DNA of 64,000 nucleotides from positions 81,257 to 145,256 of the forward strand of contig CAKZLO010000034.1 of the NCBI GenBank assembly GCA_937127125.1. Direction: 5' to 3'. The position numbers and the translations under genes were made by a program. The notes beneath the pieces were generated by a model. The model searched no databases and was not told the DNA's origin. It saw nothing but the letters and a program-made list of their open reading frames with translations. This document shows, piece by piece, positions 38,162-49,706 of the stretch (positions are counted from its first letter, which is position 1; every line of letters starts with the position of its first letter). The DNA is from an uncultured Ardenticatenia bacterium. GTDB taxonomy: Bacteria > Chloroflexota > Anaerolineae > 4572-78 > NAK82.

Positions 38162-40114
38162 CTACGTCGCTGGGATCCACACCCGCATGCTGCCAATGCC
38201 GCGGTTGGCCCATGCATAGTAAGGGACAGCTCTCAGACGCAGCGCCCGGCGGGTAGTGTGGGGAGCGTTCCCAAGTGGCTGATACAGTGTGCCCTGCCAA
38301 GGTTGCGGGTCGGCCAAATATCCTGCGGCTTCCACGATCATCAGACCGCCCAGCAGATCATCGCGCCAAACTGTATGCAGCGGTTGGTTCACGTCAATCT
38401 GCACGTCGAGCAGATTGTCTGGCGTTTCCTGGTCACAACTTTCCAAACAATAAACAATGGGGCCGCGCTGGATCGCTACACAGCCCCGAATCGCATCCAC
38501 GCGTGGATGCGGTGTGACCAGGAAGGGTGCCATCGCCATGTTCAGCTCTACTGTGTCTCCTGGCTGCCAGTTTCGCTTTAGCAGAAGATAACCTTTTTCG
38601 ACTCTAGGATTCTGCACGCGGTGGCCATTCAAATCCAAGTCGAAAGATTTGCACCATTCTGGCAAGCGTAGACTCAACTCCCAAGCGTTTGATCCAGTTT
38701 CCTGCGCTGTGATTTGGATGTATCCCTGCCATGGATAGTCCGTCTTGACAGACAGGACTATCTTCTGACCATCAGATATCTGTGCACTGATCTTGAGTGT
38801 CCCATATAGGTGAATTTGCAGTCCGGCAACGCTGGCGGTGACGAAGTAGTGCCCCAGTGAGGAGAGCAAGCGCATCACATTTGGGGGGCAGCAGGCCACA
38901 CTATGCCATGCCGGGCGCCCTGCGAGGGTCTCCCCTTGAGGAGAATTGCTGGAGAGTCGCACGTAACGGCCACTGCGTAGCATAAGCGGATTGACGTAGA
39001 AGTAATGCCTGCCGTCCAGGCTCGGACTACTCAGAATACCATTATACAATGTACGTTCGATCAAGTCGGCATAGCAGCTTTCCCCACTCAGGAGCAACAG
39101 ACGCCAGTTCCACATCAGGCTTCCAATACTGGCGCACGTTTCACAGTAACACTGGTCAGGGGGCAGCTCATAGGCTTCGCCGAATGCCTCGCCGTCGTAG
39201 CGCGAACCTATCCCGCCGGTAATGTACATCTTGGTCGTGGTCATATCATGCCACAGCCGCTGAATAGCTTCTAGCAATGCCCTCTCACCAGTTTCCAAAT
39301 AGAGATCTGTTGCGCCAGCAAGCAGGTACATCTGGCGCACGGCGTGGCCAGCCACTTCTTGGGCCTCTCGCACTGGCACGTGGTCCTGATGGTACTCTGG
39401 CCCGTTGGCACCCAGCCCACGCATCCTCCTTTTTCCACGCTGGTCTATGAAAAACTGGGCGAGTTTCAGGCACGTTTCGTTCCTCGTCGCGCGATAGAGC
39501 TCTACCAGCGCCATCTCGACTTCTGGATGCCCACATGCCCCTTCTCTCTTTCCCGGTCCGAAAATAGAGGCGATGTGGTCGACCAGCCGTTGGGAAGTTC
39601 GCAATAGGCGGTGGTCACCCAATGCTCGTTTGAAGGCTATAGCTGCCTGAAAAAGGTGACCAGCACAGTACAGTTCGTGGCCAAAGTCCAAATCAGTCCA
39701 TTTTCGATGCGGTTCAACGACCTGATAGTAGCTGTTCAGATATCCATCTGGTTGTTGAGCAGAGCTGACTAAGTCGATCACCTCATCAGCCAGCTGTTGT
39801 AGTTCGTCATCTGGCGCATTACCTAGCTCCCAGGCAATTGCTTCAAGCCACTTATACACATTTTCGTCAGCAAAATGCATGCCCCTATAGAGCCCAGTTG
39901 CCCTTCCGGCGGCCAGTCTGAGATTGTGGAAGTTACCAGCCTTTTCGAGCATCTCATAGCCATGTCTCAGGCTCTCTTTGCGATTTGTCTCCTGGCGTAC
40001 AGCCCAGAATCCACCCGTGATCCGTACCGAACCAAAGGGCAGGGTTCTGAGTATGGCATAGGGGCTACGAGAGTTGTCGACAGGTCCTGCCTCAGGTTGT
40101 GATGATCTTTCCAC
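38162..40114 (-). CDS. GH127 family beta-L-arabinofuranosidase-like enzyme
   Basis: A 650-residue protein with an (alpha/alpha)6 barrel and beta-sandwich, DUF1680/GH127 family. Residues matching the HypBA1 zinc site are present: Glu325 and Cys327 in CYCETC, and Cys408-Cys409 in SVACCPPN, plus the probable acid/base Glu309. Other landmarks are NLRLAAG, GYLNSYYQ, GHELYCAGHL and ITGGIGS. The enzyme would release beta-linked L-arabinofuranose from imported oligosaccharides; there is no signal peptide. The GTG start follows GGGAAGA. It ends the LacI-controlled operon, 16 nt after the permease stop. Confidence 0.93.
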   Translation of the reverse strand: MERSSQPEAGPVDNSRSPYAILRTLPFGSVRITGGFWAVRQETNRKESLRHGYEMLEKAGNFHNLRLAAGRATGLYRGMHFADENVYKWLEAIAWELGNAPDDELQQLADEVIDLVSSAQQPDGYLNSYYQVVEPHRKWTDLDFGHELYCAGHLFQAAIAFKRALGDHRLLRTSQRLVDHIASIFGPGKREGACGHPEVEMALVELYRATRNETCLKLAQFFIDQRGKRRMRGLGANGPEYHQDHVPVREAQEVAGHAVRQMYLLAGATDLYLETGERALLEAIQRLWHDMTTTKMYITGGIGSRYDGEAFGEAYELPPDQCYCETCASIGSLMWNWRLLLLSGESCYADLIERTLYNGILSSPSLDGRHYFYVNPLMLRSGRYVRLSSNSPQGETLAGRPAWHSVACCPPNVMRLLSSLGHYFVTASVAGLQIHLYGTLKISAQISDGQKIVLSVKTDYPWQGYIQITAQETGSNAWELSLRLPEWCKSFDLDLNGHRVQNPRVEKGYLLLKRNWQPGDTVELNMAMAPFLVTPHPRVDAIRGCVAIQRGPIVYCLESCDQETPDNLLDVQIDVNQPLHTVWRDDLLGGLMIVEAAGYLADPQPWQGTLYQPLGNAPHTTRRALRLRAVPYYAWANRGIGSMRVWIPAT

Positions 40115-40129: not shown

Positions 40130-40990
40130 CTACTTGATTGCTCCGCCGGTGAGACCGCGCACAATCGCCCTCTGGGAGAAGAGAACTAGAATAACTACCG
40201 GAATAGTCATGGTCACGCCAACGGCCATGATCAGTTCCCACGGCTTTCCCCACGGCGAGTAGCCGGCGAACACCTCAGTGATGGACACGCTAAGGGTCTT
40301 GGAGGAGGGTGATGTGGTGAAGGACAACGGATACAGCAAGTTGTTCCAGGCGTTGATAAAATTGATCAACCCCATAGTCACCAAAGCAGGCCTGGTGACC
40401 GGTACCAAAATGCGCACGAAGATCTGCAGCAATGAGGCTCCATCAATGATGGCTGCTTCCTCAATCTCATAGGGCACTTGCTTGATGAAAGAGACCAACA
40501 CCCAAACCGTGAAAGGCGCGAGAGCACTGCTCAACACCAATGTGATGCCGGCAATCGTGTCCAGCAAGCGCAAGCTGGAGAGGATGCGGTATAATGGTAC
40601 GATGGTGCCAACATCTGGCAAGGCCATCGACAATACCAACGTCCACATAATAATGCCACTGCCTGGAAACCGGATACGGGCAAAGGCATATGCGGCCAGA
40701 AAACTGACGACCAGCGTCACAAGTGTGGTCGCCAATGCGAAGACAACTGAATTGCGCACGTAATCCAAGAAGGGCACCTGTTCGATCAGTGTAACGAAGT
40801 TGCGCAGAGTAGGCGCGGGGAAATAGACCAGTGGGACCTTGATCAGATCAGCTGCAGGGGCTAGCGACGACCGAACCATCCAGTAAACCGGCAACAACAC
40901 AACAAAGGTGAAGAATAAGAAACTGACATATACAGCGCCACTGCTCCACCTGCGATTCCAGGGTCTGACTACGCGTGCATCGTTCACCAT
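40130..40990 (-). CDS. Sugar ABC transporter permease, MalG type
   Basis: A 286-residue membrane protein with six helices and the EAA loop EIEEAAIIDGASLLQIFVRILVP. The ATG at 40990 follows GGAGAGA and comes 20 nt after the stop of the partner permease; the longer frame upstream overlaps it and is not supported. It pairs with the MalF-type permease for uptake of an oligosaccharide. Confidence 0.92.
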   Translation of the reverse strand: MVNDARVVRPWNRRWSSGAVYVSFLFFTFVVLLPVYWMVRSSLAPAADLIKVPLVYFPAPTLRNFVTLIEQVPFLDYVRNSVVFALATTLVTLVVSFLAAYAFARIRFPGSGIIMWTLVLSMALPDVGTIVPLYRILSSLRLLDTIAGITLVLSSALAPFTVWVLVSFIKQVPYEIEEAAIIDGASLLQIFVRILVPVTRPALVTMGLINFINAWNNLLYPLSFTTSPSSKTLSVSITEVFAGYSPWGKPWELIMAVGVTMTIPVVILVLFSQRAIVRGLTGGAIK

Positions 40991-41010
40991 TCGTCTCTCC
41001 GTTACCAATA

Positions 41011-41952
41011 TCAGTAAGAAACCTCGGATCTTCGGAATAGCCACAGCCCGATGGCGCCGACGATAGCTACCACCAGGAGCAAGACCACACTAATGGCAGA
41101 AGCAAAGCCAAACTTGAAGAACATGATACCCTCTCGAAACACTTGCAAAGCTAGTACTGAGGTCGCCACTCCTGGTCCACCTTGAGTCAGGCCGTACACC
41201 AGATCGAAACTCCCCAGCGACCACACCACCCGGAACAAACCCATAGTAATTGTAAGCGGCATCACCAGTGGCAGGGTGATATGCCAAAACCGATGCCAGG
41301 CATTCGCCCCATCGACTCTAGCCGCTTCATACAGGTCGAGCGGGACGCCCTGCAGACCAGCCAGGAAAATGAAAGCCATGAACGGTGCATCTTTCCATAC
41401 ATGCACTAAGATCACAGCTATCCGGGCGGAAACAGGGTCAATAAAGGCCACCATACGAGCGCCACTTATCAAGTTCACCCAGTAAGGGATTAGTCCGAAC
41501 TGGTCGTCCAGCAGCCAGCGAAAGGCGTAACCAGCCACGATCGTGGGAATAGCCCATGGGATCAGGTTGATCGTGCGTGCAAAGCCCCTCCCAAAAAATG
41601 CAGCGTTAAGCAACAGTGCAACCAGCATCCCCACGATTAGCTCGAGTACGGTGGAGCTCACTACCAGCATAATCGTGAAGGATAACGCCTCTCGGACGCC
41701 GTAATCGTTGAATACTGCCGGATAGTTTTGCAGGCCAATGAAGTCATTGGTGTTCCTGAGGAGATTAAGATTGGTGAAGCTCAGGTAAATGGTTTGCAGG
41801 ATCGGATACGCAGCAGTGGTGATCCGCAGCAGGAATGCCGGCGCGATCAGTAACAGGAAGAGCACATACCGCCGTTGGATGGCTTTCGATAAGGCTAAGA
41901 GGATGGGTTGGCCCTTTGCGCGGACAACACCTGATGCATAGGCCTGGTGCAC
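41011..41952 (-). CDS. Sugar ABC transporter permease, MalF type
   Basis: A 313-residue membrane protein with an N-terminal cytoplasmic stretch, about six helices and the EAA loop LYEAARVDGANAWHRFWHITLP. It lies 181 nt after the binding-protein gene; the gap contains a strong hairpin. No ATPase gene is in this locus, so the ATPase must come from elsewhere, possibly the MsmK-type protein at 6.4-7.5 kb. Confidence 0.92.
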   Translation of the reverse strand: MHQAYASGVVRAKGQPILLALSKAIQRRYVLFLLLIAPAFLLRITTAAYPILQTIYLSFTNLNLLRNTNDFIGLQNYPAVFNDYGVREALSFTIMLVVSSTVLELIVGMLVALLLNAAFFGRGFARTINLIPWAIPTIVAGYAFRWLLDDQFGLIPYWVNLISGARMVAFIDPVSARIAVILVHVWKDAPFMAFIFLAGLQGVPLDLYEAARVDGANAWHRFWHITLPLVMPLTITMGLFRVVWSLGSFDLVYGLTQGGPGVATSVLALQVFREGIMFFKFGFASAISVVLLLVVAIVGAIGLWLFRRSEVSY

Positions 41953-42133: not shown

Positions 42134-43459
42134 CTATGCAAGTTGCGCCAGCCGATCTTTGGCTTGTTTCAGCGACTCGTCGAGGCTGATCTGATTGGTG
42201 AGATACGCCGCTGCCGTATCCTCGAGAATAGTGAGTGCTTCCACAAACCTGGGATGGAAGGGGCGCACGCCGATGACGCCTGCGTCGGTGTACATTTTCA
42301 GCTGCTTTACCAGCCAGTTGTCCTGTGGAGCAGCTGCCAGGACAGACTTGCGAGCACTCAGGAACCAGAAGCCGACCTTCATGGCCTCCACTGCTATCTC
42401 TTTGGAGATGAGGAACTTCAAAAGCTCCTTGGCTTCTGCCAAGTTGGGGGAGGTCTTCACGATACCAAACCCCCAAGCTGCCGCATAGGTGGAGCCCGCT
42501 TTGCCGCCCGGTCCGGCTGGTGGCAAGGCGACTGCCACTTTGTCCTCACTGAACCAGTCCTTGTTATCGGGACTACGGGCAACGTCGCCGAAGAAGGGCC
42601 ACTGGCGCATGAAAGCCACTTTGTCGGCAATATAGTCTGCATTCTGCTGGTTGTAGTCCTTCTGGAGCGAGGCAGGGTTGAGCACCTTGCTAGTGTACAT
42701 GAGGTCGTAGATGTATTCAAGGGCCATCTTGTACTCGGGGCCGACGTCGAACGGGTTGCCGCCGGCCTGCAGTGTGATCCAGGCCAGATAGACGTTCAGG
42801 AAAGCCCCTTTGATCAACCCATCCTCAGAGGCCCACACGCCCTTGCTCTCGTCCGTGAAGACCTTGCCCAGAGGCTTAACCTCCTCCCATGTCGTGGGCA
42901 CGGGAATTCCTCTGGCATCAAACCAGTCCTTGCGGTACCACCAGTAGGGCATCTCCCAGTTGTGGATGATCCGGAAGGTCTCGCCTTTATAGGTGCTCCA
43001 TGTCTTACTATAGGCGATCATCTCTGGCGGAAAGTCATCCCAGAAGTCGGCGGGCAAGAGATCATCCAGACCAATCACATAGCCGGCCTGCGAGAATGAG
43101 GTAGTCAGCTCGTCTTCAAAGTCGATTACGTCGTAGGGGCTGGTGCCGGCCTGAACAGCACTGGCCAGGCGGGTGAGCTCGGTCTCCTTGGTGTCCGTTC
43201 GCAGCACCACCTCGACCTCAATACCAGTGTCCTTGGTGAAGTTAGTCTTTGCCAGCAGGTCTTTCATGTTCTGCTCGGCCCAACCGCCTACTGCTATGCG
43301 AACTTTACGCGGCGTGAGCACTGCCGGGGCCTTTTTGCGTGCTGTCGGGGCTGCCTTTGCGGCCAGTGGTATTGCCGGAGTGCTTGCTGCCAACACACTA
43401 CCAGCCGCGGCGGCGCCAGCCAGCTGCAGGAACTCACGTCTTGAGTAAGTCTTTTTCAT
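42134..43459 (-). CDS. Sugar ABC transporter substrate-binding protein with Tat-like signal
   Basis: A 441-residue family 1 solute-binding protein. The N-terminus MKKTYSRREFLQLAG has a twin-arginine motif and a hydrophobic Ala-rich core, so Tat export is likely. The mature part has VRIAVGGWAEQNM, TDTKETELTRLASAVQAGTSPYDVIDFED and WFDARGIPVPTTWEEV, as in MalE/UgpB types. It is the first transporter gene after the LacI regulator (154-nt gap, with no operator copy seen there), and the substrate is probably the arabinose-containing oligosaccharide cut by the GH127 enzyme. Confidence 0.93.
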   Translation of the reverse strand: MKKTYSRREFLQLAGAAAAGSVLAASTPAIPLAAKAAPTARKKAPAVLTPRKVRIAVGGWAEQNMKDLLAKTNFTKDTGIEVEVVLRTDTKETELTRLASAVQAGTSPYDVIDFEDELTTSFSQAGYVIGLDDLLPADFWDDFPPEMIAYSKTWSTYKGETFRIIHNWEMPYWWYRKDWFDARGIPVPTTWEEVKPLGKVFTDESKGVWASEDGLIKGAFLNVYLAWITLQAGGNPFDVGPEYKMALEYIYDLMYTSKVLNPASLQKDYNQQNADYIADKVAFMRQWPFFGDVARSPDNKDWFSEDKVAVALPPAGPGGKAGSTYAAAWGFGIVKTSPNLAEAKELLKFLISKEIAVEAMKVGFWFLSARKSVLAAAPQDNWLVKQLKMYTDAGVIGVRPFHPRFVEALTILEDTAAAYLTNQISLDESLKQAKDRLAQLA

Positions 43460-43613
43460 TTTGCACCTCCTTCACTGTGGGAAAAACTGGGATCAAGTGT
43501 CCAAATCTCATGCGATCGAGTTAGCGGTCGACAAGATTATGCGGGAGCACCAACCTCCTTTCATGCTGAAATGGGCTATGGTCCAGCAATAGAGCCCTAA
43601 TAGAGGGGGTTAT

Positions 43614-44693
43614 TCATCCTTCTGGCTGCTTGTTCAACAACACCCTTCTGAAGGCTGTTCGAGGATTGATCTCCTCTCTGGCCTTAGAAGCATCATCCGC
43701 GCCGCAGGTGTCACGGATGATCAGCTCACCTCGCACTTTGATCTCTTCCGTCTCACCACCTCCTTCCGCGATCTGTGCCAACAGCGATTCCGTGGCGACC
43801 CGTCCCATCTCATAGACAGGCATCACCACTGTGGTCAGCCGCGGGCGCACGATTTTAGCGAAGTCACGGTTGTCATAGCCGACGATAGCGATATCCCCAG
43901 GCACATGGAGACCAGAGTCCTGAATGGCGTAGATTGCGCCCAGGGCCATTAGATCGTTGGCAGCGAAGATCGCTGTGGGTCGATCCTGAAGCCTAAGCAG
44001 ATTCTGAGCCGCTTTGTATCCGCTCTCTATCTCCCAGTCACCGGGCTGAACCAGTTCGGGATCAAACTGGATGTTATGGTTCTCCAGTTCGTCTTTATAA
44101 CCAACATACCGCGCCCGCGAGTTATGCCAGTTCTCCGGCCCGTTGATGTACCCAGTGCGCCGATGTCCCAACGAGATAAGATGCCGAACGGCCAGCGTGG
44201 CTCCGTAATGATCATCCGGCACGACAGAGTTCCTTATCGGCGATCCGAAGATGCGATGGACGAACATGTGTGGCTTGTTGGATTGCTCTAGAATCTCGCT
44301 GCGCACGCGGTGGGAGTATTCTACGAAGATGATGCCGTCGACAGGGCGGCTGATCAGTGTTCTGATGGCTTCCTGTTCCTGATCGGGGTCCCAGTCGGAG
44401 TTGACAATGAGGCTTAGGAACCCATTCTCGTGCAGACAGTCCTGAATGCCTCGCACGATAGGAGGCACAAAGGGGCTCATAATGTCATCGACAATGATCC
44501 CTATCGTGTTTGTCCGGCTGCTGCGCAGGCTGCGCGCAGCGATGTTGGGCTTATAGCCCATTGACTGTGCAACTTGCAACACCTTCTCACGCACGGACGG
44601 GCTGACTGGATAGTCACTTCCGGCCAAAACGCGAGACACGGTGGCAATGGAAAAACCTGTCGCCTTGGCAATGTCCTCCAGCTTTACCGACAT
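43614..44693 (-). CDS. LacI-family transcriptional regulator
   Basis: A regulator of 359 residues. The N-terminal helix-turn-helix is VKLEDIAKATGFSIATVSRVLAG, followed by the hinge-helix segment NIAARSLRSSRTNTIGIIV and a periplasmic-binding-protein-like sugar-sensing domain (AIFAANDLMALGAIYAIQD, IAIVGYDNRDFAKI). It should repress the importer/GH127 operon and itself until sugar is present. Two operators of its type overlap its promoter. A GTG at 44705 is an alternative start; neither has a strong Shine-Dalgarno. Confidence 0.95.
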   Translation of the reverse strand: MSVKLEDIAKATGFSIATVSRVLAGSDYPVSPSVREKVLQVAQSMGYKPNIAARSLRSSRTNTIGIIVDDIMSPFVPPIVRGIQDCLHENGFLSLIVNSDWDPDQEQEAIRTLISRPVDGIIFVEYSHRVRSEILEQSNKPHMFVHRIFGSPIRNSVVPDDHYGATLAVRHLISLGHRRTGYINGPENWHNSRARYVGYKDELENHNIQFDPELVQPGDWEIESGYKAAQNLLRLQDRPTAIFAANDLMALGAIYAIQDSGLHVPGDIAIVGYDNRDFAKIVRPRLTTVVMPVYEMGRVATESLLAQIAEGGGETEEIKVRGELIIRDTCGADDASKAREEINPRTAFRRVLLNKQPEG

Positions 44694-44762
44694 ACACCCT
44701 ATCACTCAAGAGAATGTGGTAATGAAGATTCCACCCTTGCTTATCTAAGAATATTCTCTCTC

Positions 44763-44776
44763 AGAAAACGTTTTCT
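44763..44776 (-). promoter_or_regulatory. LacI-type operator 1
   Basis: The perfect 14-bp palindrome AGAAAACGTTTTCT has the central CG of LacI-family operators. It lies just downstream of the -10, over the expected transcription start. Confidence 0.85.
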
Positions 44777-44782
44777 AAACCT

Positions 44783-44811
44783 AGTATATCAGAAAACGTT
44801 TTCTATGTCAA
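44783..44811 (-). promoter_or_regulatory. Promoter of the lacI-like gene and operon
   Basis: On the minus strand TTGACA (44806-44811), exactly 17 bp and TATACT (44783-44788). Operator 2 lies wholly in the spacer and -35 edge. Confidence 0.85.
44791..44804 (-). promoter_or_regulatory. LacI-type operator 2
   Basis: A second identical AGAAAACGTTTTCT palindrome, 28 bp centre-to-centre from operator 1 and inside the -10/-35 spacer. Binding would directly exclude RNA polymerase. Confidence 0.85.
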
Positions 44812-48097: not shown

Positions 48098-49706
48098 TCA
48101 CTGTTCCAGCCACATTGTTTCGTACCGCAGCGAGTGCTCCGGGTGAGTAAGTGTCGCCTCGCCACGCAGTTTCTCAGAGTGCGCCACTGTGTACACGCCG
48201 TTGAAGATGGGTACCCAAACGGCATCATCCATAAGCGCCCGGAACAGCTCTTTGTACCCCTGCAGGCGCTTCTCGCGGTCAGTGATGGTCAACAGCTCCA
48301 TCGCCTTGGCATGCAGTTCCTTATTGCAATAACGCGACCAGTTCCAGCCGCCGGGCACATTGGAGTCACAACCCAGTATCGGGCCATAGAAATCGTCCGG
48401 ATCGGGGTAGTCCTGGATCCAGGCCAACCCGCCCGACCAAGTGAGCGGTGTACGACCGTTGCCTGCATCATCAATCACGTTGGGCGCAGCCAGCGTGTTG
48501 ATCGTGAGCTTGATCCCAATCTGCGCCAGATCTTCCTGGAACGACTCGCACAATTTGGGCTGCGGCTCGACAGCGATGCATTCGATGCTGGTCTCAAAGC
48601 CATCGGGGTAGCCAGCTTCGGCCAGCAACGCCTTGGCCTTCTCCGGGTTGTAGTCATAGCCCTTGTAATCTGGGTCGTATCCTGGCATCAGCGGAGGCAG
48701 TATCTGGTTAGCCACCGTGCCACGGCCATTCAGCAGCTGGATAATACGCTCTTTGTCGATGGCGTGGTTGAGGGCACGGCGCACCAACACATTGTCGAAA
48801 GGAGGCCACGTCACGTTGATGGCGATATAGATGGTGCTGACTTGCGGCTGGATCTCGATGCGGTCTTGCCACGCCGGGTCATTAGAGATGCGTGTCCACT
48901 CAGCACCGGGTGGAGGATCGCCCATCAAGTGGATCTCGCCCGTCTCCAGGCGCAGCAGTGCCACATCCGGTTCGACGCCTACCTCAATCTTGACCTGATC
49001 CAGGTAAGGGAGACCTTCATAAGAAGTACTCGGGATTACGCTCAAAGATTAGGTACTGACCGGGCTGCCACTCCTTGAAGAAGAAGGGGCCGGTTCCCAC
49101 CGGATTGTGCCCGAAGTTGGCAGGGTCTTTTTCCACTTCTTCCTTGGGCACAACGTAGGCGAAGTTGAGAGCAATCTTGTTCAGGAAGGTAACATCCGGC
49201 TGGGTCAGTGTGAACTGAACGGTGTACTTATCCAATGCCTTGATGCCTTCCACTGTGGTCGCCTTGCCGTCAATGAACTCCTGCGCCCCCTTAATACCCA
49301 GGTAGAAACCAGCACCAGGGCTGGTGGTCTTGGGGTCCAGGACACGGGTGAGGGTGTATACCACATCATCGGCGGTGAGCTCGCGACCATTGTGGAACTT
49401 GACACCTTGGCGCAGTTTGAAGGTGTACACTGTGCCATCGGCGCTCACTTCGGGCATCGCTTCGGCCAGCCGTGGCAGCAGGTTGGTGGTATCGTCGTAG
49501 TCGAGCAGGCCATCAAAGACCATTTTGACTGCTGGCCAGTTGGTCCAGTCATATGCAATCGCTGGGTCAAGCGTGGCCAAGTCGTCCTTGTACGCCACCA
49601 CGATCGCGCCGCCGCGCTGTGGCTCAGCCGCTTGGGCCGGGCCCGGCCAGGCGGTGATCAGCAAGGCCAGAATGATCAGCAGACTGAAGAAAGATAGCTT
49701 GCGCAT
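48098..49706 (-). pseudogene. Family 5 (Dpp/Opp-type) substrate-binding protein gene, single-base frameshift
   Basis: Two adjoining frames make one family 5 binding protein. The N-terminal part (49017-49706) has a signal peptide ending PAQA, RGGAIVVAYKDDLATLDPAIAYDWTNW and VKFHNGRELTADDVVYTL, and breaks off at NPEYFL. The C-terminal part (48098 to about 49017) continues with EGLPYLDQVKIEVG through YNPEKAKALLAEAGYPDGF. Removing one T in the run near 49021 restores EYFYEGLPYLD and a complete protein of about 536 residues. Both halves look well conserved, so this is either a recent mutation or a sequence error. It would capture peptide- or amide-like substrates for the adjoining permeases. Confidence 0.88.

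Follow-up and report, generated by a model that had tools for sequence, protein, structure and literature searches.

The locus examined here, in an uncultured Ardenticatenia bacterium, raises the question of whether a palindrome, AGAAAACGTTTTCT, that occurs twice in one predicted promoter acts as a pair of operators, and whether the LacI-family regulator encoded directly behind it thereby controls both itself and a downstream GH127 operon. An earlier note on the window (the whole stretch of 64,000 nucleotides analyzed) had described two identical operators in one promoter, one in the 17-bp spacer between TTGACA and TATACT and the other over the start site, 28 bp apart. This description is confirmed: both 14-mers are exact, their starts are 28 bp apart, and they occupy the spacer and the predicted start region, respectively (Table 1). 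The spacer itself, TAGAAAACGTTTTCTGA (17 nt, 44805-44789, minus strand), can be read by eye again at 44777-44761, and because a preceding T and a following GA are common to both copies, the full repeat is 17 bp rather than 14. In a promoter scan, TTGACA-17-TATACT matches the consensus at 11 of 12 positions; judged from its -10 box, transcription would start at about 44776, seven bases past the box and on the first base of the O2 copy. AGAAAACGTTTTCT is an even palindrome with a central CG, the form of a LacI-family operator, and two such predicted operator sequences thus lie within the promoter of the regulator's own gene, in a putative tandem arrangement.

The 14-mer is also rare. Allowing up to three mismatches, the window holds four matches against 1.1 expected from shuffles, the other two with 2 and 3 mismatches; since 5 of 100 shuffles also reach four matches, only the two perfect copies carry weight. 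The genome scan that the earlier note had suggested, run over 3.73 Mb in 85 contigs (95% complete) with at most one mismatch, returns the two promoter copies alone, and none for the reversed control. A genome-wide search for a wider regulon with the 12-base core at 2 mismatches found no clear excess (149 matches against 135 in the control); further genomic targets were accordingly dropped as candidates, and we claim no regulon beyond the operon.

Table 1. Predicted promoter elements, operators and genes of the regulator-GH127 locus (window positions).
Feature	Position	Strand	Basis
-35 hexamer TTGACA	44806..44811	-	window sequence and promoter scan
Predicted operator O1, AGAAAACGTTTTCT, fills the -35/-10 spacer	44791..44804	-	exact copy; relatives
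-10 hexamer TATACT, 17-bp spacing	44783..44788	-	window sequence and promoter scan
Predicted operator O2, AGAAAACGTTTTCT, over the predicted start	44763..44776	-	exact copy; relatives
LacI-family regulator, ATG start preferred	43614..44693	-	Pfam PF00356, PF13377, PF00532
Gap without operator; weak promoter-like match at 43564-43536	43460..43613	-	mismatch search and promoter scan
ABC solute-binding protein SBP_bac_1	42134..43459	-	Pfam
ABC permease BPD_transp_1	41011..41952	-	Pfam
ABC permease BPD_transp_1	40130..41044	-	Pfam
GH127 beta-L-arabinofuranosidase-type enzyme	38162..40114	-	PF07944, PF20736, PF20737; 4qjy E 1.6e-153

The regulator combines an N-terminal LacI helix-turn-helix (PF00356, 48.9 bits against a cut-off of 27) with a periplasmic-binding-protein-like core (PF13377, 130.9 bits against 26.5), as expected of the LacI family. 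Its start codon is more likely the ATG at 44693 (359 aa) than the listed GTG at 44705, since L043/L078, L044 and L079 carry an ATG at the same place. At the far end of the gene series, the GH127 protein has the catalytic, middle and C-terminal domains of that family (PF07944, PF20736 and PF20737), and its ETCAS and CCPPN stretches, which we take to be the cysteine-bearing active-site stretches of GH127, align with the solved enzyme 4qjy. The GH127 gene is our one basis for naming L-arabinose as a candidate inducer. Two features of the window stand apart from this argument. The regulator ends in an FRRVLLNKQPE-like tail (window 43614-43660) beyond the usual LacI core, which is kept in L078, L079, L044, L080 and L045 and is not obvious in remoter orthologues. 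At 48098-49706 on the minus strand, an oligopeptide-type binding protein recognized by eye is split into two overlapping frames (48098-49045 and 49017-49706), so that its gene looks frame-shifted or misread.

We searched for the regulator in 7 family genomes, 396 genomes of the class and the contigs of named genomes. At E <=1e-85 it is present in 14 of the 396 class genomes at 15 places, which together with L044 and L045 from named contigs give 17 regulator loci, the window counted in; L043 was dropped as the same stretch as L078 (G006). Twin sites are found at 15 of the 17 loci, the window included (14 by script and L087a by reading). L084 (G174) has a single site, over the start by eye, and at L045, whose regulator is without its N-terminus, no operator was found at the regulator. 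Five genomes (the window's, G006, G108, that of L044, and G249) share the gene order regulator, binding protein, two permeases, GH127, and a GH127 gene lies behind the regulator at 13 of the 17 loci (the window by Pfam, ten by tblastn, L081 and L082 by Pfam). None was seen behind L045 and two L087 regulators in the stretches examined; the L086 sequence ends about 800 bases behind its regulator, and its operon is beyond view in this count.

The promoter layout extends well past these orthologues. A loose pattern, TTGACA with a pair of AACGTT cores separated by 16 to 38 bp, has 106 matches in 95 of the 396 class genomes against 7 in the reversed control. A TANNNT box follows 15-19 bases past TTGACA in 97 of the 106, leaving 9 without a -10 box, and in 83 of the 97 the core begins five bases after TTGACA within a 17-bp spacer, as in the window. 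Leaving out two matches in G094, one in G168 and one in G150 (AACGTT repeats), as well as one in G264 that overlaps a counted match, gives 101 places, at 82 of which a profile search finds a LacI-type helix-turn-helix gene within 800 nt downstream; earlier regular expressions, superseded by the profile, had put a regulator at 63 and 57 of the 101. Such a gene is missing within 800 nt at 14 of the 95 places with a -10 box (L114, L127, L142, L145, L149, L150, L151, L152, L156, L162, L171, L185, L186 and L194), with less than 450 bases downstream to search at L127, L142, L185 and L186. By eye, the frames behind the twin-core promoters of L150-L152 look like a GH4-type enzyme and that of L162 like a solute-binding protein. 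Because L150, L151, L152 and L162 are without a LacI-type gene in that range, target operons, too, may use the twin-core layout. Among 151 genomes drawn from the phylum, 133 are from outside the class, and 5 of these, all of one genus, have a match. The window's own genome has nine LacI-type genes, one more of which shows the twin layout: its spacer contains CCAAAACGTTTTGG, and an imperfect second copy lies 32 bp further along. The paralogues L091 and L096 of the same genome have overlapping palindromes behind the predicted -10 box, and the 13 bp between those of L091 resemble the 13-bp class in PMC4052901. Since the same layout recurs across the class, the window promoter is one case of a common design: it is ordinary in kind, its 28-bp distance being less usual, and it is a real, conserved, doubly operated promoter of a probably autoregulated LacI-type regulator.

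More than one site precedes about 20% of regulated operons in the LacI family, and 72% of the regulators studied are autoregulated, according to Ravcheev et al. 2014 (PMC4052901). The tandem sites described there are, like those of the window, even palindromes with a central CG; they differ in that the window pair, at 28 bp, is off the 13-, 22- and 32-bp peaks, and section 9 of that paper makes no mention of an operator that fills the -35/-10 spacer as in the window. A similar layout is hand-built in synthetic biology: the engineered lacO promoters described in PMC5754348 have an operator between -35 and -10, like O1, and further operators at or downstream of +1 tighten their repression. Those promoters are man-made, whereas that of the window is natural and has the regulator's own gene first behind it. 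Our literature search, with subscription papers mostly outside its reach, found no paper on palindromic LacI operators in Anaerolineae and none on LacI-family operators in a promoter spacer.

The spacing bears on whether the two sites act together. At the 82 LacI-adjacent places, the core-to-core distance is most often 32 bp (41 places) or 33 bp (21), followed by 31 (9), 34 (5), 30 (3) and 28 (3); thus 71 of the 82 fall at 31-33 bp, about three helical turns, and the three at 28 bp are the window, G006 and G081. Pair distances in the LacI family show maxima at 13, 22 and 32 bp, and PMC4052901 takes those of 22 and 32 bp as cooperative. Both the class-wide preference and this published reading favor the idea that two touching regulator dimers bind the sites cooperatively, as proposed for 22- and 32-bp pairs, yet for the window we consider it doubtful. 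The window and G006 lie at 28 bp and so on neither cooperative peak, the peaks being a tendency and not a requirement. At 10.5 bp per turn, 28 bp corresponds to 2.67 turns, or a twist of about 240 degrees, which would put the two dimers on different faces of the helix and make close contact less likely than in relatives with 31-33 bp. The protein tree argues in the same direction: the window and G006 regulators pair with support of 100/99, their sister pair has spacings of 32 and 31 bp (the four rows group at 99/95), and the next branch, more weakly supported at 88/90, has 31 bp. Nested in this way within lineages at 31-32 bp, the 28-bp distance looks derived, most simply by a shortening after the -10 box. 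In the clade as a whole, 31-33 bp is found at 10 of the 15 twin loci, while the spacing is 27 and 26 bp at the two G211 regulators and 22 bp in G029; since the spacing spans 22 to 33 bp, no strict geometry appears to be required and phasing is not kept throughout. As a long shot, many LacI-type regulators of the class might share a fixed design, with a first operator that exactly spans the 17-bp spacer and a second one three helical turns on, over the start, and in the window's genus a shortening of 3-4 bp after the -10 box might have put the second site out of phase. If true, this genus would have given up cooperative for independent binding, perhaps alongside changes in the regulator.

How far transcription from this promoter extends depends on the 154-nt gap between the regulator and binding-protein genes. 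The earlier note had seen no operator copy there and had concluded that the regulator probably controls itself and the GH127 operon as one transcript. The gap is indeed free of AGAAAACGTTTTCT matches at up to 3 mismatches, as are the regulator-to-binding-protein gaps of all five gene-order genomes, and in the window's gap the scan finds no terminator on the minus strand. An alternative that we consider unlikely is that the twin operators control the regulator gene alone and that the genes from binding protein to GH127 use their own promoter in the gap, which would have to escape the regulator, given that none of the five gaps has a site within 3 mismatches. A weak promoter-like match in the window's gap (ATGAAA-17-CATAAT, 9 of 12) and the longer gaps of L044, L079 and L080, roughly 200 to 360 nt, keep such a promoter in play at low probability; against it, the -10-like half of the match is not conserved in L078 of the same genus, where most of the -35-like half is kept (alignment, by eye), and the gene order is conserved. 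No firm sign of a shared promoter or hairpin emerged when five gaps were aligned and folded as single sequences. All five (window, L078, L079, L044 and L080) have a ribosome-binding-like GGAGGT in mid-gap (GGGGGTG in L080), with 89 to 289 nt left to the end of the examined stretch; it is possibly a leader peptide or relic. For an independent promoter carrying all operon transcription, the result that the earlier note had named as refuting its view, the gap offers one weak match. A single transcript covering the regulator and the GH127 operon is plausible, in keeping with the gene order in five genomes, the operator-free gaps and the missing terminator, and in our judgement it is considerably more probable than an independent promoter. 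That the two sites are operators of the adjacent regulator, built into its promoter, is supported by the twin sites at 15 of 17 loci, by paired change and by an association between operator arms and regulator residues.

Within the clade the operator varies between lineages, and the two copies at one locus stay alike: both copies read AGAAAACGATTTCT in L082, GGAAAACGTTTTCC in L083, GGCAAACGTTTGCC in L086 and AGTAAACGTTTTCT in L090, with lower agreement in L081 (12/14) and L087b (11/14) than at other loci. On average, O1 and O2 of the same locus agree at 13.43 of 14 positions, a value that drops to 11.63 when copies are shuffled across 14 loci and is reached by 0 of 5000 shuffles; the second site was taken as the best match within its locus, and the shuffles drew on these same choices. 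The first copy in L080 is imperfect, and its exact reverse complement forms the second; one copy might have templated the other. The operator also tracks the regulator across genomes. Of the 396 class genomes, 19 have TTGACA with the operator at up to 2 mismatches, compared with 1 for the reversed control; the 19 comprise 11 of the 14 genomes with the regulator and 8 of the 382 without it, and 10 of those 11 matches sit at the regulator, that of G169 lying elsewhere (Fisher p = 3.6e-12, slightly conservative because it was entered as 9/382 and the actual count is 8). Finally, among 57 places whose recognition stretch was read by regular expression, the second specificity residue is Thr in 36 of 37 cases with an operator arm starting in CC and in 3 of 20 with other arms (Fisher 1.4e-10, kinship ignored), where the recognition-helix positions read are presumed, from LacI work, to be specificity residues. 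The lone case with a CC arm but another residue, L156, was probably misread, because the profile finds no LacI-type gene there; the AGAA arm of the window accompanies Ile-Ala in its regulator. These patterns support the view that the two predicted operators in the promoter are those of the adjacent LacI-type regulator. That they instead belong to another regulator, for instance a global CcpA-like protein, is highly improbable: CcpA proteins (3oqo and others, over residues 5-309) score best among the solved relatives of the regulator and the operator, as we take it, resembles cre sites, yet operator presence tracks the adjacent regulator, a further genomic copy is missing at up to one mismatch, and matches to the core with 2 mismatches stay near their control (149 against 135). 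CcpA acts globally, at many sites, whereas the window regulator has one twin site in the genome at up to one mismatch.

We regard as likely an autorepressed operon that begins with its regulator gene and whose promoter is blocked at two sites: the regulator would occupy O1 and O2, and transcription would read through to GH127. The promoter at 44811-44783 would drive the regulator gene and then, by read-through, those for the binding protein, the two permeases and the GH127 enzyme. Without inducer, a regulator dimer on O1 in the spacer would bar RNA polymerase from the -35 and -10 hexamers, and a second dimer on O2 would block the start region. Both sites would be freed by a sugar formed from the imported substrate, and the operon and its repressor would therefore rise together. 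That the regulator binds and represses here, that a sugar acts as inducer and that one transcript spans the operon is what we infer, whereas the paired sites, the promoter match, their occurrence and paired change with the regulator and the conserved gene order are observed.

This reading predicts a control site for a GH127 operon in a poorly studied phylum. Beyond the window, the class offers a natural series of promoters with spacings of 22 to 34 bp and many operator sequences, most of them beside a LacI-type gene, and this series could serve to test helical phasing and the operator code of the LacI family.
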